Below are positions 2,415-57,400 of a stretch of DNA of 64,000 bases, piece by piece. Below the pieces are notes generated by a model. It ran no database searches. It was not told the origin of the DNA and worked only from the letters and a program-made list of their open reading frames with translations. How positions within the stretch are numbered: the first letter of the stretch is position 1; every line of letters starts with the position of its first letter. The position numbers and the translations under genes were made by a program. The stretch lies in NCBI GenBank assembly GCA_951640195.1, contig OX621171.1, positions 1,736,001 to 1,800,000 on the forward strand, written 5' to 3'. This stretch comes from Porpolomopsis calyptriformis (taxonomy: Eukaryota; Basidiomycota; Agaricomycetes; Agaricales; Hygrophoraceae).

Positions 2415-3341
2415 ATGTCCAATGACAACGAACAGACAGACTTCAAGAGTCTGGTCATCGAGCTTCAAGACACGTCGGTCCTCCATCCTGGGGGGCCAGA
2501 GAGCTCCGGGTATGATACCTGGGTGCTGGAGAACGCGGATCGCGTGGTAAGTCTTTATTTGATCTGTCTTGACGCTGGACTAATCAGTCTGTGCAGACAA
2601 ACTTTTTAGTGAGACTCCCGGAGATGATAGAGGGTGGGGAGGAGATTCCCCGAGTGGTGGAAGATCTCGCAGAGGAGATAAGCGAGTCATATGAGAAGCA
2701 CGGGGAGTAGTGGAAGGCGGAGAGGAGGGCGATGGAGGAGAAGGAGAGGGCGATAGAGGAAGAGGCGCGGGCCGAGGCAATCGCGGAGGAGAGGCGGGAG
2801 GCCGAGGAGGTAGCGGAGAGGACAACGGAAAAGATGGAGGAGAGGAGGATCGAGGAGGAGGAGAAGGAGAAGCGGGAGCGGGTTGAGTGAGCAAGGGCCC
2901 ACTGGGAGAAGATGCTGGGGGCCAGATTGAAGGCATCGGAGGAGCCTTCGGTCATAACGACAGAGAGGGGAGGAACAGCGACGGAGACATTGGAGCGGGT
3001 CGGGAACGGTGAGGATGAGGTCGGGGTGGGGGAGGAATCGTCGAAGAAAGGTGGACGGGTCAAATCTGCCATGCAGGTAAGTATGTTTTTATTTCCATAG
3101 CGTGTATGATCTAATATACATGTTTTAGTGTCATGAGCCAGCATGCGACCACTGCGCCAAGCGCCTGGTCCCATGCGTCAAGTATCTGGGAGGTGGGGCG
3201 TGTGGTCCGTGTGCGCGAGACCACGCCTCATGTTCGAAGTCCAGCGGGTCGAAGCGGAAGGCGAGCGTGGAGGTGAAGCCGAGGCAGAAGCAGCCTCTGA
3301 AGGCAGTCCCGAGGCCGGTTCCAAGCCATCATAGCTGCTAA
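2415..3341 (+). pseudogene. Coiled-coil protein with C-terminal Zn2Cys6-spaced cysteines (family member 1)
   Basis: Three exons can be read in one phase: 2415-2546, 2597-3076 and 3129-3341, with introns gtaagt..cag and gtaagt..tag. The product begins MSNDNEQTDFKS. The middle exon encodes a long Glu/Arg/Lys coiled coil, and the last exon encodes a cysteine cluster with spacing C-x2-C-x6-C-x8-C-x2-C-x6-C followed by a basic tail. That spacing fits the fungal Zn2Cys6 pattern, although such clusters are usually N-terminal. Two in-frame stops, TAG at 2708 and TGA at 2888, break the coil, so I call it a pseudogene. A second member with the same order of parts lies at 6054-7703. The family function is unknown to me; DNA binding is an inference from the cysteine spacing. 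Confidence 0.7.
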
Positions 3342-3429: not shown

Positions 3430-4985
3430 GGTTATCACCAATTGCATATTCTCACCATTTTATTGGCATCTGCATGTAGCCCTTTGTCATCTATCTTATG
3501 ACCTAGACAGTCAATAACATCAGTGTACAGTTTGCACTTCTCCTCTTGGAGGTAGAACTTGTATTCTCATAGTTTACCAAACACAAGACCCAAGTGTTTT
3601 TCATGCTCCAAGACGGAAGCACTATAGATGAATAGATTGTTGAGATATGCATGCATGAATATACCAATGAAATCTTGAAAGATTATTGTCATTACCCGCT
3701 GGAACATAGTGGGTGCGTTGCAGTCTCCTATCTGCATTGTATGGCTCACATAGGTGCCATATATAGTTGCAAATGCGCTTTTATGCACGTCTTCAGGTAC
3801 TGTCCGTACCTACTCATAAGCATCTGATAAGTCAATTTTTGACCTTATGGTTCCACCAGCCACATCATATCTGATCTGGTCTTGGTCTGGAAAGGGCGTA
3901 ACATCCTTTAAAGTATTGTCGTTGCATTTACGACAATCAATTGGCATCTGTAGAGTGCCATTCTTTTTTGGAATGCACAGCATCGGAGCTGCTTGATCAG
4001 TTTGCACTGATTCCCACCATCTGGTGCATGTATACTGCGCAATCTTCACCATAAGCTGAGGCTTTAGTGAGTCTGGACATCTCAGAAGGTAGTAATTGTA
4101 CTTCTTATCTTTGTCGATAAGAGGTATGTGGTGATTGACACCACGTACTGGAGGCAATTCCTCAGGTACTCCGTGCATAATATCTTGGCATGCTTTGATC
4201 CATTTGGCTCGAAGGCAAGGTCTGTCCTCATGTGTTAGGGATGTTTCAGTCCTTTTGTTCGGTTGAACAATTTGAGCTACACTCAGTAGCATCTTTTCAT
4301 TAGACCCGGTAGGGGTATTCTCTTTTATTTTCTTTGTGTTCGCATCTGAACACCTTTTTCTTGAAAACTCCTTGACAAACTCTTTTGGTTTGTTGGTTTC
4401 TATGATGTCCTGTCTGAATGTCTTCCCTGTAGAACCTTTCGGTTCTGCATCTGCTAGTCATTCAGCAGACCTTTGTTCAGTTCGTCACAGTGATTGTCTG
4501 CACACGATTTCATCATTTTCCTCCCCTTTAGTTAGAGTGGGAGCAGCTACCCTGTAGACCATTATCTGGTTCACGCTAGGCTCTAGTGTAATTTTGAATT
4601 CACACATGAACCCAATGCCAATTATAGCATTGAATCTGTCGATATTTATGATATCAAAGTAGTATTTCTTTGCGATACTTTCATACTGCATGGGACAGTA
4701 AGTACTGTAGTTAATCTGTGATCTGCTACTGCGGCATCCTAGTTGGATTGGAACAGGGTCCTTCAACTGATATATTTTCAAATTTGTGACTCTCGCAAAT
4801 TCTGGGCTAATGGCATCAGAGGTGCTGCCTGTATCAAACATTACAATGGCTACAAGGCCATTTAATTCCATGCAAGCCACTAAAGGCCTTACTTTCATGC
4901 TCAGCTTCACTGGGTGGTCCCTGCTGTCTACTGGACTTACAAACCCATGATTTGGGTTAAGTGTCCTCTTTGAACACTTGTTCAT
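3430..4985 (-). mobile_element. Gypsy-type retroelement fragment: protease and reverse transcriptase
   Basis: Read on the minus strand, 4985-4485 holds a retropepsin-like region with the active-site triad DTGS, followed by a Gly-x-Gly (IIGIGF) second motif. Segments 4292-3810 and 3788-3430 hold the start and palm of a reverse transcriptase (PKKNGTLQMPIDCRKCN, then KIDLSDAYE). The catalytic YxDD box appears as YLNNLF, so both aspartates are changed to Asn, as G-to-A changes would do. The frame is interrupted between the segments, and RNase H and integrase are absent on this strand. It meets a plus-strand integrase fragment of similar type at about 5040. It is a dead remnant. Confidence 0.85.
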
Positions 4986-5041
4986 TATTTATAGATGCCA
5001 TAAATTCATGAGCAGGCTCCCTCACATACTATCCCAAATTT

Positions 5042-5875
5042 TGAATACTTCATTCAGAAACAGTGAAATCGATTGGCGAATGGATCTTTGAGGATATAAT
5101 CTGTTGATGGGGCTCTCTTCGAGAAATCATTATGGATAATGGAACAGCTTTCTTAGGAGCCATAGATCACTTTGCCAAGCGCTATCAGATCAACCACATT
5201 TGCATCAGCAGATACAACTCTCGCGTGAATGGGATAGTCGAATGATCTCACTTCGACATACAACAATTGCTATTTAAAGCTGTTGATAGCAATCAGAAGC
5301 AATGGTTGATCGGAGCCTACTCTGTATTTTGGGCTGAGTGCATCACTACCCAAAAGCAATTGGGATGCTCACCCTATTTTTCTATCACTGGATCACAGCC
5401 ATTGCTTCCTTTAGATATTTCTGAAGTGACATATCTCCTTCCCACTCCAGATTCGGTTCTCTTGATGACTGATCTAATATCACAACGTGCAATCGCTCTA
5501 CAGAAATGAGACACTGACTTAGAGCAACTTCGATCGAAGGTTCTCACTGCTTGCCTACGATCCACAGTTCGATTTGAAAAGAGACACAAGAAAACTATTC
5601 ATGACTACGACTTCAAAACTGGTGATCTTGTACTCATTTGGAACACCAAAATTGAGAAGTCTCTCAATTGAAAGATGCATCCTCGATACCTAGGACCCCT
5701 AGTCATAATATCTTGAAACCTAAGAAAAGCTTATATCATTGCAGAGCTCGATGGATCCATCTTACATCATCCATTGCTGCATTTAGAGTCATCCCATACT
5801 TCACCTGAAGATTGATCGCAATACCTGAATGATTCCTCAATATATCAACTTCACAACTTAGAGAGATGGAACATT
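5042..5875 (+). mobile_element. Gypsy-type integrase C-terminal fragment
   Basis: One reading frame gives an integrase core and tail: IIMDNGTAFLGA (a core aspartate), NHICISRYNSRVNGIVE (the region of the catalytic glutamate), then a long helical section, the FKTGDLVL motif of the C-terminal domain and RYLGPLVII. At least four interruptions are TGA codons where an arginine is expected, such as after NGIVE and before KMHPRYLGP. This suggests CGA-to-TGA decay. Protease and RT matching this orientation are absent. The neighbouring protease-RT remnant lies head to head, so the pair probably arose by inversion or by two insertions. Confidence 0.85.
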
Positions 5876-11993: not shown

Positions 11994-12366
11994 GTGCACC
12001 ATCTGAGCATGCTCGGATTGCGGGGAATAGCTTGAAAATCATGATATGCCCCATCCAATCATGTCATTATTGATACGACCAAGACCCTATTTGTTACGAT
12101 TATGCGCCAAAGGAGCATGCTCCTTTGGTGCAGTGTATCCATCACTGAGGTGGTAAACCCATTACTCATTACAACACGAGTAATAGTATTATACAATTAA
12201 ATAATAACATCCGAGAAATGAGCATGTTCATTACACGCAAACATCACTTAAATGATATAACCATACAAGAGGAAGTGCGCCAAATGAGCATGCTCAAATA
12301 GCACATGTATGATATTACACAATGTAATCACAATACCGCGCCATTTGAGCATGCTCATTTGGCGCG
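11994..12366. repeat. Four 30-bp palindromes upstream of the ParB-motif gene
   Basis: Copies lie at 11994-12023, 12103-12132, 12276-12305 and 12337-12366. Each is 30 bp with the half-site TGCGCCAAAnGAGCA followed by its complement, and the core is GAGCATGCTC. The arms vary together (for example GGAG..CTCC in the second copy, TGAG..CTCA in the third), so dyad symmetry is kept while sequence changes. Between copies the DNA is AT-rich and unique. They lie upstream of the gene starting at 12572. Confidence 0.88.
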
Positions 12367-13423
12367 TGATATATTCATACAATGATATATAATTCTAATC
12401 ATGTGATGTATTATTCCCTTATTGGGATGCACCCAAGCATCCACCGTTATATTAGCCGGCCACTTAGGCCCGGGATTTGCTGAACGAGCTACCTATTTAA
12501 AGGCCACCCCGGCAAGCACCTGATCCATTTTCGACCCTCTGTCTGAATGCTCACAACCGTGAACACACAACATGCCACCAAAACGCTCCGCGCCAAAAAG
12601 CAGCAAAGCCAAGACTACCAATAAACCAGCACCCGCCGCAAGCGAAGCAGCAGACCAGCCAAGTGAAGCAGCAGACCAGCCATGAGCGTCTGGGTCTGGG
12701 TCTGGTGCAGGAGCCATGAATGATCACCCGAGTAACGAGACCCAACTAGAGCAGAGAGAGGAGACTGGGGTTGAGGTAAGTCGTCTTAAAAGGAAAGTGA
12801 CAGACACAAACTAAAGAGAGGGTAGGAGATCACCACGAACGACTCTGCAGCGGCGGCAACCAGCAAGGCCAAGGCCCGCTACATACTGATCAGCAAAGCC
12901 ACGATTGGGTTTGCCAAACTTGATCTGGCTGCTCAAGGGATGGTGTTTCACTTTGGAAAGTATAACCCGAGGGGAAGGGATGCGAACCAAGTCGCATGGT
13001 TATCCTGAGATATGAAGATGAACGGAGTCCAGTGGTACAGGAGGGAGTCCATGCTCCCCCTCTTGATCCCTGATCACAAGTATCTGATGGAGGGGTCATA
13101 CACCAAGGATGCCACTCTGGGTCCCAATGTGCCAGAGCTGAAGCTCACTGAAGAGGGAAAGGCCAAGTATCAGCGTTGGGTATGTGCAAGTGGGCAGCAT
13201 AGGTACGCTGCGCTGATGAGCTTGAGAAGAGAGCGCGTGGGGAAGATTGACAAAATGAGGGCGAAGTTGACGAAGATGAAGAAACCTGACCTCAGTGGAC
13301 CAGCGTTTGATGCGATGCAGGAATTGCAGGCAGAGATTGAGGATGAGGAGGAGTCTTTGGATCAGTTCGGGTGGTGGGTGGTGGTGATATATGATGAAGG
13401 TAAGCAAGATTTAGTTTTCATGT

Positions 13424-13561
13424 TGCGCCAAACGAGGATACTCGTTCGGTGCAAGAGGGACCAGAAATGACTTAGAGTGCGCCAAACAAGCATCCTCATT
13501 CGGCGCAAGAGGGAAGAGACATGACTTAGAGTGTGCCAAACAAGCATCCTCATTTGGTGCA
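13424..13561. repeat. Three 30-bp palindromes in tandem within one intron
   Basis: Copies lie at 13424-13453, 13479-13508 and 13532-13561, separated by related 23-25 bp spacers containing 'gacttagag'. This looks like local tandem duplication of one palindrome plus spacer inside the intron 13400-13624. The first copy has CGAGGATACTCG at its centre, the other two CAAGCATCCTCA. Confidence 0.88.
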
Positions 13562-13946
13562 CTGTTTATGGTTGACATCTAGTGGTCTATATTATTTGAT
13601 CCTCATACACTCATTCTTTTTCAGCTATATTGCTTCGCGATGGAACCAACACTCTGTTCGAGCTCTCTCGCAACAATCCTCTATACCAATATGGGGAGAT
13701 GGAAGCCGAAAAGCTGATCATGAAAGTGCGGGAAATATCTGCTACCAAAGGGAACCTCGATGCCATCAAGAAGATTCATCTGGAAGCAGGAAGGACCGAT
13801 ACTCGATTACGACAAGTGCTTGCTAACCCGGACATGTTGGAACTGTTAGATTCATTCAACTTCCACGGGCGGCACTTTATGTATTCAAAGGTTATGCAAA
13901 CGACTTGGATACACAAGCACTTATTAAATGTTGCCGGAGGGGTAAG

Positions 13947-13976
13947 TGCGCCAAACAAGCATACTCGTCTCGCGCA
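13947..13976. repeat. 30-bp palindrome in intron
   Basis: This copy starts directly after the 5' splice site (ggtaag then TGCGCCAAACAAGCA) of intron 13942-14018. The right arm reads TACTCGTCTCGCGCA and is partly decayed. Confidence 0.85.
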
Positions 13977-14614
13977 ATACACTTCTTTAATACTTCATTA
14001 TTATTTCTGTTAATATAGATCATATGCGAACTCATGTTGGATATGCAGGATATTCTGATAGGTCTTTTCAGACCAACAAACCAATTCGTATTCTCAAACA
14101 AGGATTTAAAGAACCATGCATCAGCGATGAAACGGCTATATGATAGAGTTCAAGTCAAGGGACAGGAGGACGACGAGATTGAACGCTTTGAGCTGGATGT
14201 CAAGTTTAGGTGGAGCCGTTTCAAGGGCAAGGGCGAACAGCCTGAAAGGGAGTTCCTGAATTCCGATCTCCTTGACGCTCTGGATGAGTGTTTCGAGGAT
14301 GAATACTCCCAGGATATTGAGGATGGGGATAGGGCAAGCAAAACGTTAGGGATGGGGGAGACATGGAATATGAAGTGTATGGAGGGGTACAAGAAGGCTG
14401 TTGGGAGTGTTTGGAGGAGAAGGGTATTGGACGAGCTGAAGGAGGGTACCGGCAAGATGGTTCAAGACAATTTGCATGACAAGACAAGATGGGCGTTGAG
14501 CAAGACAGAGAAGAACCACGAGCCATTTCCTTTCTTCACCAAATCAGTCATTATTAGCTTGGCTGAATCATTTTCATTGATGGAACTGGGCCTGAAGGAG
14601 GTGAGTAATCAGAA

Positions 14615-14644
14615 TGCGCCAAACGAGCATGTTCTTTTGGTGCA
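14615..14644. repeat. 30-bp palindrome in intron
   Basis: It lies in intron 14601-14687. The left half is TGCGCCAAACGAGCA, the consensus half-site, and the right half is TGTTCTTTTGGTGCA. Confidence 0.85.
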
Positions 14645-15982
14645 CCTTGACACAGCCTATATTCATTCTTCTTCCTCATTCATACAGGTATGCAGGTGGA
14701 TCGAGCCTCTTGTAGATTACCAACTCGACATCAGGACTGGGTTGGCCTTAGCGGACTACTCAGCGCTCGTACTCGGAGCCATTCAGGACAATCGAGAGAC
14801 ATTCAATGATCCTCATGAAACCACTTTGAAAGTATGTGGCATTATTATCTTTGTTAAATCAATACAACTAACATACTTATAGCTGTCTCTGCTACTGGTT
14901 GCCAATTGATCGGCGATTCTGGCCCTCGACCACACCATTCAATATGACGACAACATTCATGATTTCTATCGTCCTAGGAACAAAGGTGACCTGGAGAAAT
15001 TCTTCAAGGATGATAATGACGACTTGCCTGATTGGTTTGTGAATGCCGTTGGGGAACAGGAAGCAGAGTACAAGCTGCTATATGGCCAGTTGATGGCACT
15101 GCATAAGAAGAAGACCCCCACTTTGGTCAGCGACAATTGGTGCCTTCATCGAACTTGCTGGGAGTTCAGCAACTCCAAGAATACAACTCATGACTGGAAG
15201 CCACTTATCCAATCGGCGATTCTCGAAAAGGCTTTGGTCCAGAACTACCGTCGTGAACTTCTGGAGCAATGTCCCCCTGCGGTCGAGTTACGTCGACAAA
15301 TCAAAGAGTTTTTTAGTCGGATGGTGCTGCCGAGACAGATTATCAACACCAAAGGGAAGTTGTCGACAGAGAAAGTCCAGGAATGGAACTTCCCGGATGC
15401 AATTGAAGAAATCAAGGACAAATCAGAACGGCCATTTGACTTGGGTGAGATGCTAGAGGATGTGGACACTCGTCGGCATTGGAGGGAGGATAAGAAATCG
15501 CTTGCTTCTATAATCGCCAGAATTGAGGCATTGCCTTTTGCGACCATCGATCCATATCAACCGACAGTACTCGCAAATGGGGTCTACGAAGCCGTCAGGA
15601 AGCTGATCAAGGAATTGGGTTAGAACTGGGCAGTTCATGAGCAATTCAGGAAGTTGCCCAAGCCTGGCAAGGAGGATGAGCCATACGGTCCTGACCATAA
15701 ATCCCATTACTTGGAAGGCCGACCGGAACCTTTTTATATCACTCTGAGGAAAAAGCGTGGCGCCCCAACGCCAAATCAACAGGTAAGTCGAAATTGGATT
15801 TAAAAATGAATCTTAATGGCTGAAATATTGTGTGTAGAAGAAGGCAAAAGCCATGAAAGAGATAGATGCTGGAGATGGTGTTGTGGCTGTTGAGACAGAT
15901 CCGGTTACGATTGTGCCGGAAAACACAATGATGCAACAAGCAAAAGTGGATGTCGACTTATGTGAGTTAGGCAGATGGTAAA

Positions 15983-16068
15983 GGCGCCATCCGAGCACGC
16001 TCGCTTGGCGCACTGTGGAGTTTGGGTCTTGAACCTACTGCGCCAAGCGAGTGCACTCACATGGCGCA
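15983..16068. repeat. Two 30-bp palindromes in intron
   Basis: Copies lie at 15983-16012 (centre GAGCACGCTC) and 16039-16068 (centre GAGTGCACTC), both inside intron 15962-16136. The second centre, TGCA in place of CATG, is itself a palindrome. Confidence 0.85.
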
Positions 16069-16175
16069 ATATTATGATATAGAATGAATTACTCACACTA
16101 GTCTATTAGCTAACCCACCCCTCTCACAACTATCAGCATTGACACCGTTGCCTTCATCTCAAGGTGAGTGTGTGT

Positions 16176-16205
16176 TGCGCTATTGGAGCATACTCGAATG
16201 GCGCA
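16176..16205. repeat. 30-bp palindrome in intron
   Basis: It lies in the 72-nt intron 16163-16234, shortly after the GTGAGT donor. It reads TGCGCTATTGGAGCA and then TACTCGAATGGCGCA. Confidence 0.85.
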
Positions 16206-16503
16206 TTGGCTGGCCTAAACATGATTTATTATAGATTTCGAGCCAGACACTCGCCATGGCACTGACCAACATCATCAAGATGACCACTCCCTCATAATGC
16301 ATGATACTGAGAATCCAGTTCGACCCATGACACCTCCCCTTGGCAAAAAGAGAGTAGCCCCGGACACACAACGGAGCCCAGGTAAGTGTTGTAATAGGAC
16401 AAAAGCTGTCTCGCAAGACATTATGATAAGACTGATTTGGCACCATGTCTTGTCAGATGGACATAGCACCAAGAGAAAGCCTCCCCCTAAGGGGAGTATG
16501 TAG

Positions 16504-18017
16504 GGATAATCATGTCAGGTGGGAATAGGGGAAATCTTAGAGCGGAGTTATCTCTTTGTGTATAGAAGATATGTTCTGTCTTTTATTGAGTGCATTTACA
16601 GCAGTTACGGGTTGATCTCTCAATTAGTGATGGTCGGTGATATCTAGATAAGTTTGCAAACAATAACGATCATGTATATAATAATGAATGTGTGGGTAAC
16701 TTTCTGCAAGTGAATACAATTGAAGAGGTAAGATGTTATGATTCCCTCTGACATAAAGCCTCTATTCCCCTTAGGTATTTGTCCAATGGCTTTTTACATT
16801 GGTGTAAGTAGGCAATAAGCAGGCAAAGGCCTGTGTGATGTTTTTTCTCATGGATGCTGACTCTAAATAAGGAAAGGAAGTGTAATAGTCCAATAGTTTT
16901 ATAAGTTGGTAACAGCAAGGTACCTGTCAGAAATCCCGAACCCAACACCTTGCGCTATCTGAACACACTCATTTCGCGCACCTTTGGATGATGTCATATC
17001 ACCTTGCGCCATCCGAGCATACTCGTCCTGCGCCCCTATCACGGTTTATATAACAAACTACTAAACCAAAGATAACTCAAGATCTACTGATCGGATTCAT
17101 TCCGAAATTGGTTCGTTGGAATCCTTAAAGCCGTGCGCCATCCGAGTGCACTCATCCTGCGCACTCTGAGCACTTCACTGTTCAGATCATCGATAATGGT
17201 CACTTTCTTCCCTTTCTACCTTGCATTCTGTACAAGCCCCCTTTGAAGCCTATGTTGTGGACAACTTCCCCTTACATACAAGGTCCTTATGACCCTTAGA
17301 TATTTGTTCCCCTTAGTCCTTCACAAAATCCCTTGATTTGACTGCATATATATAATCTACATATTTCATAGTAGACTCTTTAGTTTTGACTTATTCAGTG
17401 CTATACAGGGATTAATGCAATCTACCCCGGGAGTGGGAGTGGGAGGGGATAAACAGGTATATATTTCTAATATTAGTTTTGCTTAGGTTAATTGATATAC
17501 CTATGGTATATATTGAGTACCAAATAGTCTATTCAACTAAGTGATAAAACTTTAGCACCTATCTATCTTAGCCAAATCTCAACTGATTTAGATAATAGAG
17601 TTATTATGGGAAAGGTGCAGTATAGGGCTAGACTGTGCAATTTAGAGCGTGGGAATCAGATAAGTATTGATAGAGGTATAAGGAGATTTTGGCTGGGAAT
17701 AAAGAAAGGCTCCTTCCTCCTGGACTCAATTCTTGATAGAATTTGCCAGAAATTGAGGATTAGGGAGTTTATTACATAATCTACATGCAATACTAGAATT
17801 TTCTGAAAAAAAAGCAAATATCAAAAAATTATAGCAATAATGTAATTAAATAAAGGTACTTTCAATATGGAGTCAAACCCAAATGGATTTAGATGAAAAT
17901 TAAAATATGGCTAGATTATTAGATAGGCTAGAGCATACAAACAAAGGCAAACACTGTACAGCAAAAGGGGAAGCAGGGGAAAGAATATAAGGAGAGTGAA
18001 TACATTAATATGATAAA
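16504..18017. other. Intergenic, no gene seen
   Basis: It is AT-rich and carries only very short frames. Three more 30-bp palindromes occupy 16951-17163. The remainder up to the chromovirus LTR at 18018 shows no domain, repeat or RNA gene that I can support. Confidence 0.6.
16951..17163. repeat. Three 30-bp palindromes downstream of the ParB-motif gene
   Basis: Copies lie at 16951-16980, 17005-17034 and 17134-17163. All three have ATC or TAT in place of AAA in the left arm, a subtype shared with 15983 and 16176. The last has the alternative centre GAGTGCACTC. No copy is found elsewhere in the window by eye. Confidence 0.85.
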
Positions 18018-21562: not shown

Positions 21563-23168
21563 CAGTGGGCCAAAAAACTGTTTCAATGTTTTGCAAGTTT
21601 GACTTGACAGTATTATATCTTATGATATAAAATAGAGAGAATTATGAAAACATTATATAAGATAGCCCTTCATCTCGGGTTTAAAACAAGCCCCTAAACG
21701 TTACAATTGGTAAAGTATTTCCAGAGATATTCCTTGTCAAATCTCATTATATCATTGAAACAGTTGTTTTGCTGAGGGCTTGTACTAGTATTTAGTACTT
21801 AGTATAGCCTCCCTTAGCCTTCAATACAGCTTCTACACATCTAGGCATACTCTCTATGAGTTTCTGACACACCTCCACTCCTATTTTATCCCACTCTACT
21901 TGTACCCTCTCCCACAACTCCACAATTCCATTAGGGGGTACCTTATAGTCAGCCAACCTCCTTTTCAAGTGACTCCAGAGATGCTCAATAGGATTGAGAT
22001 CAGGGGATTGGGCAGGCCACAAGAGGACTTTATATCCATGATCCTTCAACCATTTTTGAGCCTTCTTGCAGGTATGTTTGGAGTCATTGTCTTGTTGGAA
22101 GATAAAGTCTTCTGGGGTCTTGTCATAGAATTGGATAGTTTGTTGAAGCTCCTCCTCCAGAATCTTGACATAGAGGTCTCCATCCATTATTCCATCAATC
22201 TTGCAAGCATACCCAATCCCTTCCCAAGCCATGCAGCCCCACATCATGAGAGAACCACCCCAAACTTCTTTGTCCCCTCTACTAGCCTATCACTCAAACC
22301 CTCCCCTGGCTTTTTCCATACCCATTTCCTACCATCTGACCCCAAGCGATTAATTTTGGTTTCATCTGACCACACTACCTTCTTCCAGTCCTCTATGGTC
22401 CAATCTTGATGCCTCAAAGCAAAGTCCATTCTCTCCTTCCTATGCCTCTTAGTGAGTAAAGGTCTTTTCTTCTTTACCACAGCCTTCATCCCCACTTCTT
22501 TCAAGCTATTTCGAACAGTTTGGGAAGAGAGAGGTTGGTTGGTAACATTCCTAAGCATTTGGGTAACTTCCACAGCATTTTCAACCTTCCCAGAGCCAAT
22601 AAAACGAATTGCATAGCAGATATTAGAGGTAGAAAGCTTTGAAGGACGTCCCCCAGAAGATTTGTGGAGATAAGGGCGATGCCTGGAGCATAGCCTGGAG
22701 ATGGTAGCATTGGAAGCACCAGTTATGTCTGAGATTTGGTGACCAGAATAACCAGAATCAACAAGGGAGAGGATGTGATTGCAGTCAGCAGTAGAAAGGC
22801 TTTTCATGATGATAGTGGTCAAGTTCAACTAGTTGTTTGGGTTTGTTTGTTACTGTTCAACACTCACATGATCCACAGGTCACTTTTGGAACCAAACATA
22901 TCATAACAGTCTTCACTTATAAGTTAAAATATCATCTTTTCTAGATTTTAGTACCTCAGCAAAACAACTGTTTCAATGATATCACCAGATTCAAAATAAT
23001 ATATCTCTAGAGATACTACACTGACTGTAATGTTTATGGGCTCGTTTTGAACCCAGGATGAAGGGCTATCTTCTATAATATTCTTATAATTTCATCTATT
23101 TTATATCACAGGATATAATAACATCAAGTCAAACTTGCCAAACATTGAAACAGTTTTTTGGCCCACTG
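21563..23168 (-). mobile_element. Tc1-family DNA transposon with near-intact transposase
   Basis: The element is 1606 bp with terminal inverted repeats starting CAGTGGGCCAAAAAACTG and running for at least 50 bp, bounded by TA on both sides (21561-21562 and 23169-23170). The transposase reads 22828 to 21792 on the minus strand: helix-turn-helix N terminus (SGYSGHQISDITGASNATIS), then the DDE triad in WSDETKI, FQQDND and SPDLNPIEHLW. Counting gives 34 residues between the second D and the E, so it is DD34E. One single-base deletion near 22245 (in the glycine-rich FGGGS region) shifts the frame; otherwise the frame is open. It sits between two different chromoviruses. Confidence 0.95.
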
Positions 23169-27566: not shown

Positions 27567-27866
27567 CACATGGTTCAGTCAAAGATAGTGGTGAACTACA
27601 GTGAAATGAACTTGCTATATAGCGGTGTTTCTCAGTCCACCGATCTTCAGCCGAAAATACATATATAGCTGATGTACACTGAAGCACCGAAATTTATATA
27701 TAGTAGTGAAATACATCTCCACTAAAAGGCAGGTATGCCAGTACACTACAGGGTAGCCAAGAGTGATAAGGGAGATACACTAATGGGCTGAAGATAGTAC
27801 TCACCAAAGACTATGGAGGGGCCGAGAAATGGATGTATATGTATATGGCTCGGCTGAGATATACAT

Positions 27867-28262
27867 TGCCGATAACTACTGATGGGCCGAAGGTGGTTTC
27901 TACTATATATACAGGTTGGCCGAGATATAGATTGCCAATGCCTACCAATGGGCCGAAGGTGGTTTCTACTATATACACAGGTTGGCCGAGATTTAGATTG
28001 CCGATAACTACCGATAGGCCGAAGGTGGTTTCTACTATATATACAGGTTGGCCGAGATATAGATTGCCAATAACTACCGATGGGCCGAAGGTGGTTTCTA
28101 CTATATATACAGGTTGGCCGAGATATAGATTGCCAATGCCTACCGATGGGCCAAAGGTAGTTTCTACTATATATACAGGTTGGCCGAGATATAGATTGCT
28201 GATAACTACCGATGGGCCGAAGGTGGTTTCTACTATATATACAGGTTGGCCGAGATCGGTAT
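27867..28262. repeat. 66-bp tandem repeat, six units (left arm)
   Basis: The unit containing GGCCGAAGGTGGTTTCTAC recurs at about 27885, 27951, 28017, 28083, 28149 and 28215, which is exactly 66 bp. Because 66 is a multiple of 3, the array is open on one strand and translates as a 22-residue repeat. I regard this as a by-product rather than a gene. Confidence 0.9.
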
Positions 28263-28430
28263 GCTATACTACACCTTCAGAGATGTCCACCAATGCCGAG
28301 AATGGCTCGGCTGAGGGGTAGCAGTTGCATCGGTACCCTATAAATATGTGTATAGTAGATATAAATATATATTGCGAATAATTAATTGCTTCAGCTATAA
28401 ACAACTTTGCTGATAATTGTATACTTTAAT

Positions 28431-36254: not shown

Positions 36255-39200
36255 CATATGGTTGCCAGTCATTGGACAAAGACACATCAAGCAGAGAGAA
36301 AACCAAGAAAAATGGTAAGAACAATTACGAGCAAGCTCAAATGAACGCCAAAGGTTATTAACGAACAGCAAGACAAGTATAGATCACTTACTAAGTCATA
36401 CAAGGATCAACAAAATAGATGACGAGAAAAGGATGCCATTCCGTTTAGGGGGGTATTGGGGGTATCAGAGTCAAGACGCATGCAGCTCGCGCACTGAACT
36501 AGAAGAAATCAAAACATGGGGGTTCTGGCAGACAGTCGGTGTAGCAATGGGTGCTTTAGCATCCTCTCCTTGTCACCTGCAAATTTATTGATAGCATTCA
36601 AAAGGTCACCACGGCGGAGAGGTTCTGTGAAAATAACATGGGATTACGTCAGAGAACACGCAAAGGGCAATCCACATACTTGTAATATGATCGTCCTACC
36701 AAACATACTCACCAGTCAGAATGCCCCACGGAGAGGCAAAATGAAGGGCGTACCATTCCTACCTATATACATCGCTCCCGGTCGCCAATCACTAAACAGG
36801 CATGTTGAGTAAGCAATTAGAAAGGAAACAACCGAGAAACTTAACACGGACTGGCATGAGCGGTGAGTGCAATGATTGGTGTCCGCTTTAATCTGCTTTG
36901 TACCTCCCACGCTCAAATCAACTCCGTCGCTTCCATCCCTCCCATGAATGGCATTGATACGTCCATCTACCCCAAACCCGTGAGCTCGTTGGATGGTTTG
37001 GAATGCAAGTTAAGGACAATTCGGAAACACACCAATATTATATCAAACGGCTTATTCCGACACACCCTCGCCTTAAACGCATCCAGCGCCAAACTCTCAT
37101 TCTCAGCAATCTCTACAGTGTGTCCATATTTCTCCAAGATTTTTACCGCCAACTTCTGGTTCACCAAATTGTCCTCGGCGAGCAAGATGTCGAACACGAT
37201 GTTATTAGGTACAGAGACTGGGCTGACAGTGTTCGATTCGAGTGCAGAGATCAGGGCGGAAGACAAGTCTTGCCCGCTCACAGGAGTAGTGAGTTGCGAA
37301 CTGATGCTGTTGTCTAGGCACCATTTGACTGGATCGCGCATAAGAAGATGGTCCGTCAGTCCAACTGTCACTTCTAGAGCCGATGAAAGCTCACGGTTCA
37401 GACGAGGCATCGACGGGGCTAGTAGTACGATCGGGATATATCTCAGATGCTCATACTCTTGTATACACTCCGTCTAAGGCACACACAGTGAGCATGGGTG
37501 ACCCAAACCAGCAGAAACACATACCACGTTGAGCGAGTCCAGTACGATCAATGTGTGGACAGCGATCCTTATCCGCGACGTCGCTGACTTCATGTACGAC
37601 GAATGGTGTCAAATATAACTCCCGGATCCGATCCGAGACTCCCGTGGTGTCACGCACTGTATCCACAAACAAGATCGTATGCTTGTTGAAAGGTGCCATC
37701 TTCGCCAACGTGCTCTCCATCGAGGTCTGGCTGATCCGTGATGTGATAGTGAAGAAGAATTTACTCCCTTTCGACACCTCACTCTCCACCCACATGTCGC
37801 CCTGCATCAACGACACCAACCTCTTCGAGATGGAAAGGCCCAAACCAGTACCCCCGTACTCCTACCAGGTGAATGAGTTCTCGTAGCCCGCAAAAACAAC
37901 CTGAATCGGTGTACTTACCCTGGTAGTAGACCCATCCGCCTGGCAGAATGTGTCAAATATCAAATTAAGCTTATCTTTGGCTATCCCAATCCCTGTGTCT
38001 GTGACACAAAATTCCAGAGTGACACTCTGGTCATCCCGGCCAGCAGTCGCGTGCTCAAATTGACGTGACCCTTGCGAACCTTGGATGGTGGCGTAAACTT
38101 GATGGCATTCCCAACCAGATTGGTAATAACCTGTCGCAGCCTCAGGGAGTCGCCAATAAGGTGATCAGGAATGTCGGCTTCGACGTTGTAGGTAAGATCG
38201 AGATTATTCTGTGAGGCACGGACGACCAGCGTCTTGAGGATACCGAAAACGGTCTGGCGCAGAGAATAGGATACTGCCTCCATAGTCATACGACCCGCCT
38301 CAACTAGGGGTGGAAAGAAGACAATTCAGGAAGGGCAACATACAATGAAGGGTAAATCGAGACATACTTTTCGATATATCAAGAATGTCGTCAATGATCA
38401 ACAGAAGCGATCTCGCGAGACTATGAACCAACAAAAGGCTCTCCCGCTGCGATCGATTCAGGTCACTATCAAGCGTCAACTCTGTCATCCCAATAATCCC
38501 ATTCATTGGGGTCCTAGTATCACCTTCGCATCAGAGCCAGAACTAAAACGAACGAAAGACAGACGAACCTGATCTCATGCGACATATTTGCCAAAAACTC
38601 ACTCTTACTCCTATTGGCCAACTCAGCTGCCTCCCTCGCGGCGGTATTCTTTTGTATACTAACCCTCAAATTGTAAACCATTTGATTGATCTGCGTCTTG
38701 AGCGAGTCCATCTCCCCACTCGCCTCAACTGTGATGAACCGTGTGAAATCGCCGTCCATGGCCGCCGCCGATATCTGCGCGAACCCGCGAACCTGAGTTG
38801 TCAAATTCCCCGCCATGGAATTCACAGATAATCTGCAGATCCAAATACCACCACGGAAGCCATTAGTAAACGTACCACTTGGACCACAGGGACGGGCGTC
38901 GTACGTGATCTCCTGCCAAATACCCTGCACGTTCCCAACCTCAGCCTGCATTCCCAATTTCCCTTCTGTCCCGACCTCGCGCGCTACTTTCTTCACCTCG
39001 GCAGCAAATATCGCCAGTTGGTCAATCATGTCGTTTATTGTGTTCACGAGGCTTAACATTTCGCCCGAGACCGACACACGGGTGATCTTCTGCGTGAGAT
39101 CCCCACAAGCTACTGCGGTCTATATGAGCAGGGAATGTGCAAATGGGCTCATTAAAGACAATGATGGAATGCTCAAAGTGGGATGGACGTACGGTCGCAA

Positions 39201-54462: not shown

Positions 54463-57400
54463 CATATGGTTGCCAGTCATTGGACAAAGACACGTCAAGC
54501 AGAGAGAAAACCAAGAAAAATGGTAAGAACAATTACGAGCAAGCTCAAATGAACACCAAAGGTTATTAACGAACAGCAAGACAAGTATAACAAGGATCAA
54601 CAAAATAGATGACGAGAAAAGGATGCCGTTCCGTTTAGGCAGGTATTGGGGGTATCAGAGTCAAGATGCATGCAGCTCGCGCACTGAACTAGAAGAAATC
54701 AAAACATGAGGGTTCTGGCAGACGGTCGGTGTAGCAATGGGTGCTTTAGCATCCTCTCCTTTTCGCCTGCAAATTTATTGATAGCATTCAAAATGTCACC
54801 ACGGCAGAGAGGTTCTGTGAAAATAACATGGGATTATGTCAGAGAACACGCAAAGGGCAATCCACATACTTGTAATATGATCGTCCTACCAAACAAACTC
54901 ACCGGTCAGAATGCCGCACGGAGAGGCCAAATGAAGGGTGTACCATTCCTGCCTGTATACATCGCTCCCGGTCGCCAATCACTAAACAGACATGTTGAGT
55001 AAGCAATTAGAAAGGAAACAACCGAGAAACTTAACACGGACTGGCATGAGCGGTGAGTGCAATGATCAGTGTCCGCTTTAATCTGCTTTGTACCTCCCAC
55101 GCTCGAATCAACTCCGTCGCTTCCATCCCTCCCATGAATGGCATTGATACGTCCATCTACCCCAAACCCGTGAGCTCGTTGGATGGTTTGGAATGCAAGT
55201 TAAGGACAATTCGGAAACACACCAATATTATATCAAACGGCTTATTCCGACACACCCTCGCCTTAAACGCATCCAGCGCCAAACTCTCATTCTCAGCAAT
55301 CTCTACAGTGTGTCCATATTTCTCCAAGATTTTTACCGCCAACTTCTGGTTCACCAAATTGTCCTCGGCGAGCAAGATGTCGAACACGATGTTATTAGGT
55401 ACAGAGACTGGGCTGACAGTGTTCGATTCGAGTGCAGAGATCAGGGCGGAAGACAAGTCTTGCCCGCTCACAGGAGTAGTGAGTTGCGAACTGATGCTGT
55501 TGTCTAGGCACCATTTGACTGGATCGCGCATAAGAAGATGGTCCGTCAGTCCAACTGTCACTTCTAGAGCCGATGAAAGCTCACGGTTGAGACGAGGCAT
55601 CGATGGGGCTAGTAGTACGATCGGGATATATCTCAGATGCTCATACTCTCGTATACACTCCGTCTAAGGCACACACAGTGAGCATGGGTGACCCCAACCA
55701 GCAGAAACACATACCACGTTGAGCGAGTCCAGTACGATGGTATCAATGTGTGGACAGCGATCCTTATCCGCGACGTCGCTGACTTCATGTACGACGAATG
55801 GTGTCAAATATAACTCCCGGATCCGATCCGAGACTCCCGTGGTGTCACGCACTGTATCCACAAACAAGATCGTACGCTTGTTGAAAGGTGCCATCTTCGC
55901 CAACGTGCTCTCCATCGAGGTCTGGCTGATCTGTGATGTGATAGTGAAGAAGAATTTACTCCCTTTCGACACCTCACTCTCCACCCACATGTTGCCCTGC
56001 ATCAACGACACCAACCTCTTCGAGATGGAAAGGCCCAAACCAGTACCCCCGTACTCCTACCAGGTGAATGAGTTCTCGTAGCCCGCAAAAACAACCGGAA
56101 TCGGTGTACTTACCCTCGTAGTAGACCCATCCGCCTGGCAGAATGTGTCAAATATCAAATTAAGCTTATCTTTGGCTATCCTAATCCCTGTGTCTGTGAC
56201 ACAAAATTCCAGAGTGACACTCAGGTAATCCCGGGCCAGCAGTCGCGTGCTCAAATTGACGTGACCCTTGCGAACCTTGGATGGTGGCGTAAACTTGATG
56301 GCATTCCCAACCAGATGGGTAATAACCTGTCGCAGCCTCAGGGAGTCGCCAATAAGGTGATCAGGAATGTCGGCTTCGACGTTGTAGGTAAGATCGAGAT
56401 TATTCTGTGAGGCACGGACGACCAGCGTCTTGAGGATACCGAAAACGGTCTGGCGCAGAGAATAGGATACTGCCTCCATAGTCATACGACCCGCCTCAAC
56501 TAGGGGTGGAAAGAAGACAATTCAGGAAGGGCAACATACAATGAAGGGTAAACCGAGACATACTTTTCGATATATCAAGAATGTCGTCAATGATCAACAG
56601 AAGCGATCTCGCGAGACTATGAACCAACAAAAGGCTCTCCCACTGCGATCGATTCAGGTCACTATCAAGCGTCAACTCTGTCACCCCAATAATCCCATTC
56701 ATTGGGGGTCCTAGTATCACCTTCGCATCAGATCCAGAACTAAAACGAACGAAAGACAGACGAACCTGATCTCATGTGACATATTTGCCAAAAACTCACT
56801 CTTACTCCTATTGGCCAACTCAGCTGCCTCGCGGCGGTATTCTTTTATACACTATCCCTCAAATTTTAAACCATTTGATTGATCTGCGTCTTGAGCGAGT
56901 CCATCTCCCCACTCGCCTCAACTGTGAGGAACCGTGTGAAATCGCCGTCCATGGCCGCCGCCGATATCTGCGCGAACCCGCGAACCTGAGTTGTCAAATT
57001 CCCCGCCATGGTATTCACAGATAATCTGCCACCACGGAAGCCATTAGTAAGCGTACCACTTGGACCACAGGGACGGGCGTCGTACGTGATCTCCTGCCAA
57101 ATACCCTGCACGTTCCCAACCTCAGCCTGCACTCCCAATTTCCCTTCTGTCCCGACCTCGCGCGCTACTTTCTTCACCTCAGCAGCGAATATCGCCAGTT
57201 GGTCAATCATGTCGTTTATTGTGTTCACGAGGCTTAACATTTCGCCCGAGACCGACACACCAGTGATCTTCTGCGTGAGATCCCCACGAGCTACTGCGGT
57301 CTATATGAGCAGGGAATGCGCAAATGGGCTCATTAAAGACAACGATGGAATGCTCAAAGTGGGATGGACGTACGGTCGCAACGGCAATCGTCCGGACTTG

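Follow-up and report, generated by a model that had tools for sequence, protein, structure and literature searches.

Why should a set of 30-bp palindromes lie before, within the introns of and behind a single gene? The question is raised by a 64,000-nucleotide stretch of the fungus Porpolomopsis calyptriformis (GenBank assembly GCA_951640195.1, contig OX621171.1; here C9:1736001-1800000), referred to below as the window, which was analyzed together with the genome (33.5 Mb, 17 contigs). An earlier note, made from the letters of the window, had described a site family tied to this locus and offered a protein-binding site, a small-RNA hairpin or a miniature mobile palindrome as its nature. The palindromes belong to a dispersed orphan gene family, the members of which carry them before the gene, within matching introns and behind the gene. 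They are predicted, with about even confidence, to be binding sites of the protein encoded by this same gene family.

Palindromes of the window

Every 30-mer of the window was scored against an earlier consensus, and 16 reached at least 21/30, all of them within 11995-17163; first-order Markov simulation of the window, run five times, produced one such 30-mer overall. Half-sites with at most two mismatches numbered 14 against 0.27 expected. The copies are diverged, the full pattern with at most three mismatches being present in three of them only. The gene was delimited by splice signals and by tblastn of a relative; its splice sites were placed by eye, and the small 3' exons are tentative. 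It carries four in-frame stops, at 12683, 13006, 14907 and 15621. The features are listed below, the palindromes without strand.

11995-12024, upstream palindrome 1, by consensus score
12103-12132, upstream palindrome 2, by consensus score, 14/15 pairs
12210-12239, upstream palindrome 3, by consensus score, weaker
12276-12305, upstream palindrome 4, by consensus score
12337-12366, upstream palindrome 5, by consensus score
12572-16456, plus strand, gene body, an orphan-family pseudogene
12572-12775, 12829-13399, 13625-13941, 14019-14600, 14688-14831, 14883-15782, 15838-15961, 16137-16163 and 16235-16381, plus strand, exons of the gene
12829-13399, plus strand, exon 2, with a motif weakly resembling sulfiredoxin/ParB (SGQHRYAAL ... 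WVVVIYDE), from the alignment of four relatives
13424-13453, intron 2 palindrome a; relatives L057 and L058 likewise have three in intron 2
13478-13507, intron 2 palindrome b, 54 bp after a
13532-13561, intron 2 palindrome c, 54 bp after b
13947-13976, intron 3 palindrome, beginning within the splice donor (GTAAG|TGCGCC); same place in L058
14615-14644, intron 4 palindrome, in an intron shared with sites of L058, L059 and L060
15983-16012, intron 7 palindrome a
16039-16068, intron 7 palindrome b
16176-16205, intron 8 palindrome
16925-17393, plus strand, truncated long terminal repeat (LTR) of a chromodomain Gypsy family, outside the gene, 85-91% to the LTRs of L042
16951-16980, LTR palindrome 1; the 54/129 spacing is found again in other LTRs
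17005-17034, LTR palindrome 2
17134-17163, LTR palindrome 3
231-260, palindrome of a second type (type B), maybe the edge of another family member
310-339, palindrome of type B

The cluster described in the earlier note stands, with 16 copies at this threshold in place of fifteen and five in the upstream group in place of four. The eight copies that it had placed inside five introns (2, 3, 4, 7 and 8) were confirmed, as was the absence of palindromes from the exons of the gene. The three that it had seen behind the gene are present, but they sit in the truncated Gypsy LTR and are not the gene's own. At 17/22 core letters no further palindromic copy was found in the 64 kb, in agreement with the note; the related second type does occur at the left edge of the window, where the pair suggests a family member or a remnant further left. 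Position 37530 scored as a core site but pairs at 4/15 positions only, and was rejected as a palindrome.

Relatives of the gene and placement of the sites

A genome search with exon 4 identified four other gene copies (L057, L058, L059 and L060), with 40-44% protein identity across this exon. L057 and L058, on two contigs, share 99.4% identity along 3266 bp. Ordinary tandem duplication of the locus, which had been named as a possible source of the copy number, was not observed: the upstream region of the window copy matched itself alone. Beyond this genome, exon 4 searched against a protein database gave 70 candidates with none at E 0.001, and the 857-residue translation of L058 gave 7991 scored candidates with none at E 10.

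At 17/22 core letters, 15 sites were counted in L057 (two of them within or beside an LTR piece), 16 in L058, 13 in L059 and one in L060. Palindromes occupy matching introns and flanks in three of the four relatives, while the fourth, the decayed L060, keeps one, in intron 4. L058 has eight sites upstream, three in intron 2, one each in introns 3, 4 and 7, none in introns 5 and 6, and two further at the 3' end. The pattern of introns 2-6 in the window gene is that of L058, and its 3'-end introns hold two plus one. The sites of introns 2-4 are retained in L057, and L059 carries sites in intron 3, intron 4 (two) and the 3' end (two), as well as a decayed intron 2 site with a score of 16/22. Clustering at homologues, which had been proposed as a check, was observed in this form. 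So was the proposed preference for introns, the chance that all eight would fit introns if placed at random in the gene body being 4e-7 for eight independent sites or 1e-4 for five. Introns measure 50-75 bp without a site, 71-87 with one, 175 with two and 220-225 with three; introns may be used because they tolerate an extra 30 bp. The arrays have spread as tandem units, with periods of 54 bp and 77-79 bp.

Site types and gene lineages

Genome-wide, half-sites numbered 135 against 3 in a reversed-pattern control, and core sites 112 against 4. The sites are not tied to this one locus, many of the 112 lying within Gypsy LTRs; they also gather at relatives of the gene. The second palindrome type at 231 and 310 of the window pointed to C10:166500-173500 (L073), a distant relative (20.9% identity over 431 columns, E 5e-21) which has palindromes of this second type and none of type A, the type of the window gene. 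Its sites lie before the gene at 4938-5614, mostly 79 bp apart, and behind it at 2746-2980, 78 bp apart. Relatives of L073 occur at five further places in the genome. One of these, L074 (51%), has sites of a third type, C, before the gene, two of them clear and one decayed, and no A-type site.

Types were tabulated at eight loci, namely the five A-type gene loci, L073, L074 and L067. Sites of type A/A3 numbered 13 in the window, 14 in L057, 16 in L058, 15 in L059 and one in L060, with no B or C site at any of them; L073 held 10 B and 2 C, L074 held 2 C, and neither held A. L067, an A-array derivative that lies beside a C array and is no gene locus itself, held 5 C and 8 A. The Markov control gave no sites in 171,025 bases. 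At all seven gene loci the site type agrees with the lineage of the gene, and the division of A from B/C is firm. B half-sites numbered 18 genome-wide against 3 in the control: nine at C10:169-172k and C11:328-336k (with relatives at 170k and 332k), two in the window and seven elsewhere. C sites numbered 32 against none in the reversed-pattern control, ten of them no further than 6 kb from a relative (C10:147k, C11:326-336k and C6:120k).

Among 41 sites from three relatives, pairing at positions 6-10 was seen in 160 of 205 cells, compared with a shuffle mean of 107.5 and a maximum of 129; much of this excess is a difference between lineages. The symmetry of the palindromes has been kept through these between-lineage changes. 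Within single sets, pairing at positions 6-10 reached 44 in the window (shuffle maximum 47), 67 in L058 (65) and 49 in L059 (53), and over all 15 positions 151 (147), 197 (195) and 143 (150), respectively. At 106 non-redundant sites from other loci, the majority of them LTRs, pairing at positions 6-10 is lower than after shuffling (168 against 219), and Gypsy retains the core alone. CpG density was 6-16% in sites and 0-2% outside them (12.9 against 0.9% in the array of L058), an excess that would fit CpG protection or selection.

The encoded protein

The four-relative alignment revealed an invariant GQH...A motif in exon 2, followed by a WxV..YD strand; L073, which is outside this alignment, has ARQHCFTAI at the motif. 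The GQH motif recalls GGCHRYAA of sulfiredoxin. Comparison with sulfiredoxins by hhalign gave a probability of 43% over 28 columns and 38% on repetition, the repeat scoring 30.8 against a maximum of 21.9 in 100 column shuffles and 17.6 for the reversed profile, where shuffled columns are a lenient control. The sulfiredoxin/ParB-like motif is taken as a weak lead and not as an assignment.

No Pfam family exceeded its cut-off with the 857-residue translation of L058, and PF02195 was unmatched. Below threshold were DUF2209 at 0.0015 (19.3 bits against a cut-off of 26.8, residues 175-280), DUF7343 at 0.056 on exon 4 and, in one member each, FapA, 3H, Nkap_C, RRF_GI and HTH_6 at 0.04-0.22. In the PDB there was no match at E <0.1, the best (E 0.63 and 0.18) being neither ParB nor sulfiredoxin. 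ParB_N had one match elsewhere in the genome, below the cut-off. Single-sequence structure models were of low confidence, with mean pLDDT of 56 and 46.

Proposed function of the sites

Among the options of the earlier note, the protein-binding site is the best supported by the sequences, in which the sites lie at gene relatives, occupy matching introns and change with the gene. The protein would bind as a symmetric dimer, recognizing an outer NGCGC together with an inner box centred on YG (YGAGYR for type A, YGGAC for types B and C). Binding at many sites across the element's noncoding DNA might sustain its expression, most likely by opposing methylation-based silencing, as VANC does for VANDAL elements; this anti-methylation step is suggested because the sites contain most of the CpGs of the arrays. 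Gypsy elements would have acquired the sites and would benefit in trans. Since the site follows the lineage, has dyad symmetry, is spread over noncoding DNA and has multiplied in tandem, a form like that of VANC, the element is probably self-recognizing and anti-silencing.

Several observations weigh against binding by the family's own protein. No intact copy is present at the five A-type gene loci (the window, L057, L058, L059 and L060): in L058 a stop follows codon 857, L057 is without the gene end, and L059 and L060 contain stops. Pfam searches of the family proteins gave no known DNA-binding domain over the cut-off. Within a single lineage the excess at positions 6-10 goes beyond the shuffle range in L058 only, the CpG excess is partly due to AT-rich linkers, and the division of B from C, which are similar types, is weak. 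No relative of the orphan gene was found by tblastn inside four Gypsy copies, and Gypsy sites occur even in coding sequence. Finally, 22 of the 32 C sites have no recognized gene copy within 6 kb, a minority of these places having been fetched; they lie at C10:128-138k, C10:181k, C5:349-350k, C12:1549k and as singles. These sites point to other bearers of type C, such as LTRs, or to missed gene copies, and it is because of them that confidence is held at an even level.

Element ends and array derivatives

The right end of the element, ...GTCTAACAAT, is common to 7/7 loci, after which the flanks diverge. Four array-only derivatives (L047, L048, L062 and L066) consist of a full or partial array with this right end and without the gene. 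Together with the position of the array close to one end, these features would fit a transposase gene, the palindromes being transposition sites comparable to subterminal repeats in Spm/Ac and the array-only copies non-autonomous derivatives. The sites are, however, found throughout the gene body and not at the ends only, neither terminal inverted repeats nor a target duplication of the orphan-gene element were discerned by eye, and no transposase family was matched in the Pfam searches, so that a transposase is possible but unlikely.

An abundant repeat ends in CCCTGA, and in L047 and L062 this end is joined to different points of the element. This repeat was excluded as the left part of the element, since it also occurs without it; 39 of its best 40 places are no more than 370 kb from a contig end, and the remaining one is on C6. 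Copies at C2:3664499, 3689553 and 3714607 are exactly 25,054 bp apart, which hints at a giant subtelomeric tandem unit.

Gypsy retrotransposons carrying the site

The truncated LTR behind the gene has at least 51 genome matches (best 40 of 102 candidates scored), and the 3' sites were excluded as the end of the orphan-gene element because their stretch is this LTR. The complete element L042 is 6477 bp long, with 624-bp LTRs that are 97.9% alike, and codes for gag, protease, reverse transcriptase (RT), integrase and a chromodomain; relative to an unoccupied copy in L045 its insertion shows a target duplication of about 5 bp. L042 is a chromodomain Ty3/Gypsy element bearing the site. At 21/30 it has four palindromes per LTR and seven more internally, six of which were frame-checked, five being in one frame and one not. 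Four same-frame sites lie between protease and RT and give peptides like APNEHTRFAH; two lie in the RNaseH/integrase open reading frame, one sharing the APNEHTRFAH-like frame and one not. The coordinates of the sites in coding sequence are 4674-4940, 3115-3144 and 2166-2195.

The core site (17/22 letters) was present in 29/29 other LTR copies, with at least three sites in 25/29, counted in the matched stretch; these copies were picked by similarity to window 16900-17420, which itself holds three sites, and are not an independent choice. The LTR of L010 had no site under a stricter, earlier consensus. The 54/129-bp triad recurred at nine loci selected for holding half-sites (L001, L002, L003, L005, L006, L008, L049, L050 and L051), the likeness of which to the LTR-like repeats in L046 extends far past the sites; L001 and L002 belong to L046. 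That locus is in turn related to L042, the chromodomain being demonstrated for L042 alone. A 41-bp stretch, 83-85% alike, is shared by the C-type array of L067 (235-275) and the Gypsy LTRs of L042 (1379-1419) and the window (17072-17112).

With the core common to the orphan gene, to LTRs from two Gypsy groups and to Gypsy pol, and with 22/32 C sites away from recognized gene copies, the palindromes could instead bind a host factor, either an activator or a silencer, several unrelated mobile elements carrying or being marked by its site. The replacement of A by B/C sites at the B/C lineages would not be expected from one host factor, and this explanation is likewise judged unlikely. A specific form of self-recognition may also be drawn, namely an independent fungal anti-silencing system in which a sulfiredoxin/ParB-fold protein, loaded on parS-like palindromes in its own introns and flanks, leaves the element free of methylation, the A, B and C pairs coevolve, and Gypsy cheats, even in pol; taken as a whole it would be quite doubtful.

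Mobile palindromes or hairpins as possible origins

The 30-bp unit, and introns that grow by about 30 per site, would fit miniature palindromes that inserted themselves and survived mainly in introns. No flank matches of at least five bases were found around 13 window sites and 16 L058 sites, and four-base matches were found at 2/13 window sites (12210 and 13478; 0.42 expected) and 0/16 in L058, so that the target duplications sought are not consistently present; the intron positions are shared by diverged relatives and the sites spread in 54-bp and 77-79-bp tandem units, which makes this origin very improbable. The arms covary between lineages and the mismatches of three relatives show no G-U bias on the sense strand (38 G-T against 46 A-C, p 0.45), so that selection on the palindromes looks to be at the DNA level and not on RNA. 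Hairpins acting as small-RNA sources or in splicing, in favor of which introns 3, 4 and 8 have sites within 5-14 bases of their splice donor, are just as improbable, the same sites being also found in LTRs, in coding sequence and in the arrays upstream of the gene.

Other features of the window

Near-identical duplicated segments at 36860-38438 and 55050-56634 appeared by eye to be hybrid histidine kinase-like, and a copy about 98% alike (L058 9239-9901) flanks the L058 gene on another contig. A tandem repeat at 27746-28321 is open in both directions and codes for RPTCIYSRNHLRPIGS-like units. Open frames at 21792-22828 resemble, by eye, a Tc1-type transposase.

Comparison with known systems

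ParB-parS and sulfiredoxin offer a GxHRYAA-type motif and palindromic sites; the sites here are palindromic too, and the sequence likeness to the motif is weak. No helix-turn-helix domain over the cut-off was found in the family. In Spm/En (TnpA) and Ac an element protein acts on repeated short subterminal sites, which are near the ends, whereas here the introns are filled too. Fungal DNA transposons with TET/JBP dioxygenases have been proposed to escape from methylation (Kojima 2025, PMC12730594); that paper mentions no ParB, and palindromes once in passing. In contrast to those transposons, the 857-residue L058 relative has no TET/JBP match. A comparable system is not described in the titles and abstracts of the open-licence literature searched.

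Proteins that guard their own element through matched site arrays are known from the VANDALs of Arabidopsis (PMC5735166, PMC10398659). According to Hosaka et al. (2017, PMC5735166) and Sasaki et al. (2023, PMC10398659), VANC proteins are element-encoded and anti-silencing, and their 9-base motifs are massed in introns, intergenic and terminal noncoding DNA; the arrays grow by tandem repetition and related proteins differ in motif. The orphan family is similar in placing its motif arrays in noncoding DNA of the element, introns included, in the change of motif with protein lineage (at seven gene loci) and in multiplication by tandem units. It differs in belonging to a fungus, in having 30-bp palindromes in place of a 9-base motif, in sharing its sites with a retrotransposon and in that any demethylation here is a prediction. 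VANC proteins form the sequence family DUF1985. No shared protein family was found, the 857-residue relative having no Pfam match over the cut-off. On this comparison, the best reading is that the orphan family works like VANC but is not VANC. If so, the fungus would provide a second case, with an unrelated protein and long palindromes, of a strategy that arose more than once; its naturally diverged protein-site pairs would serve the study of specificity change, and its Gypsy elements would be an example of one mobile element exploiting the sites of another.

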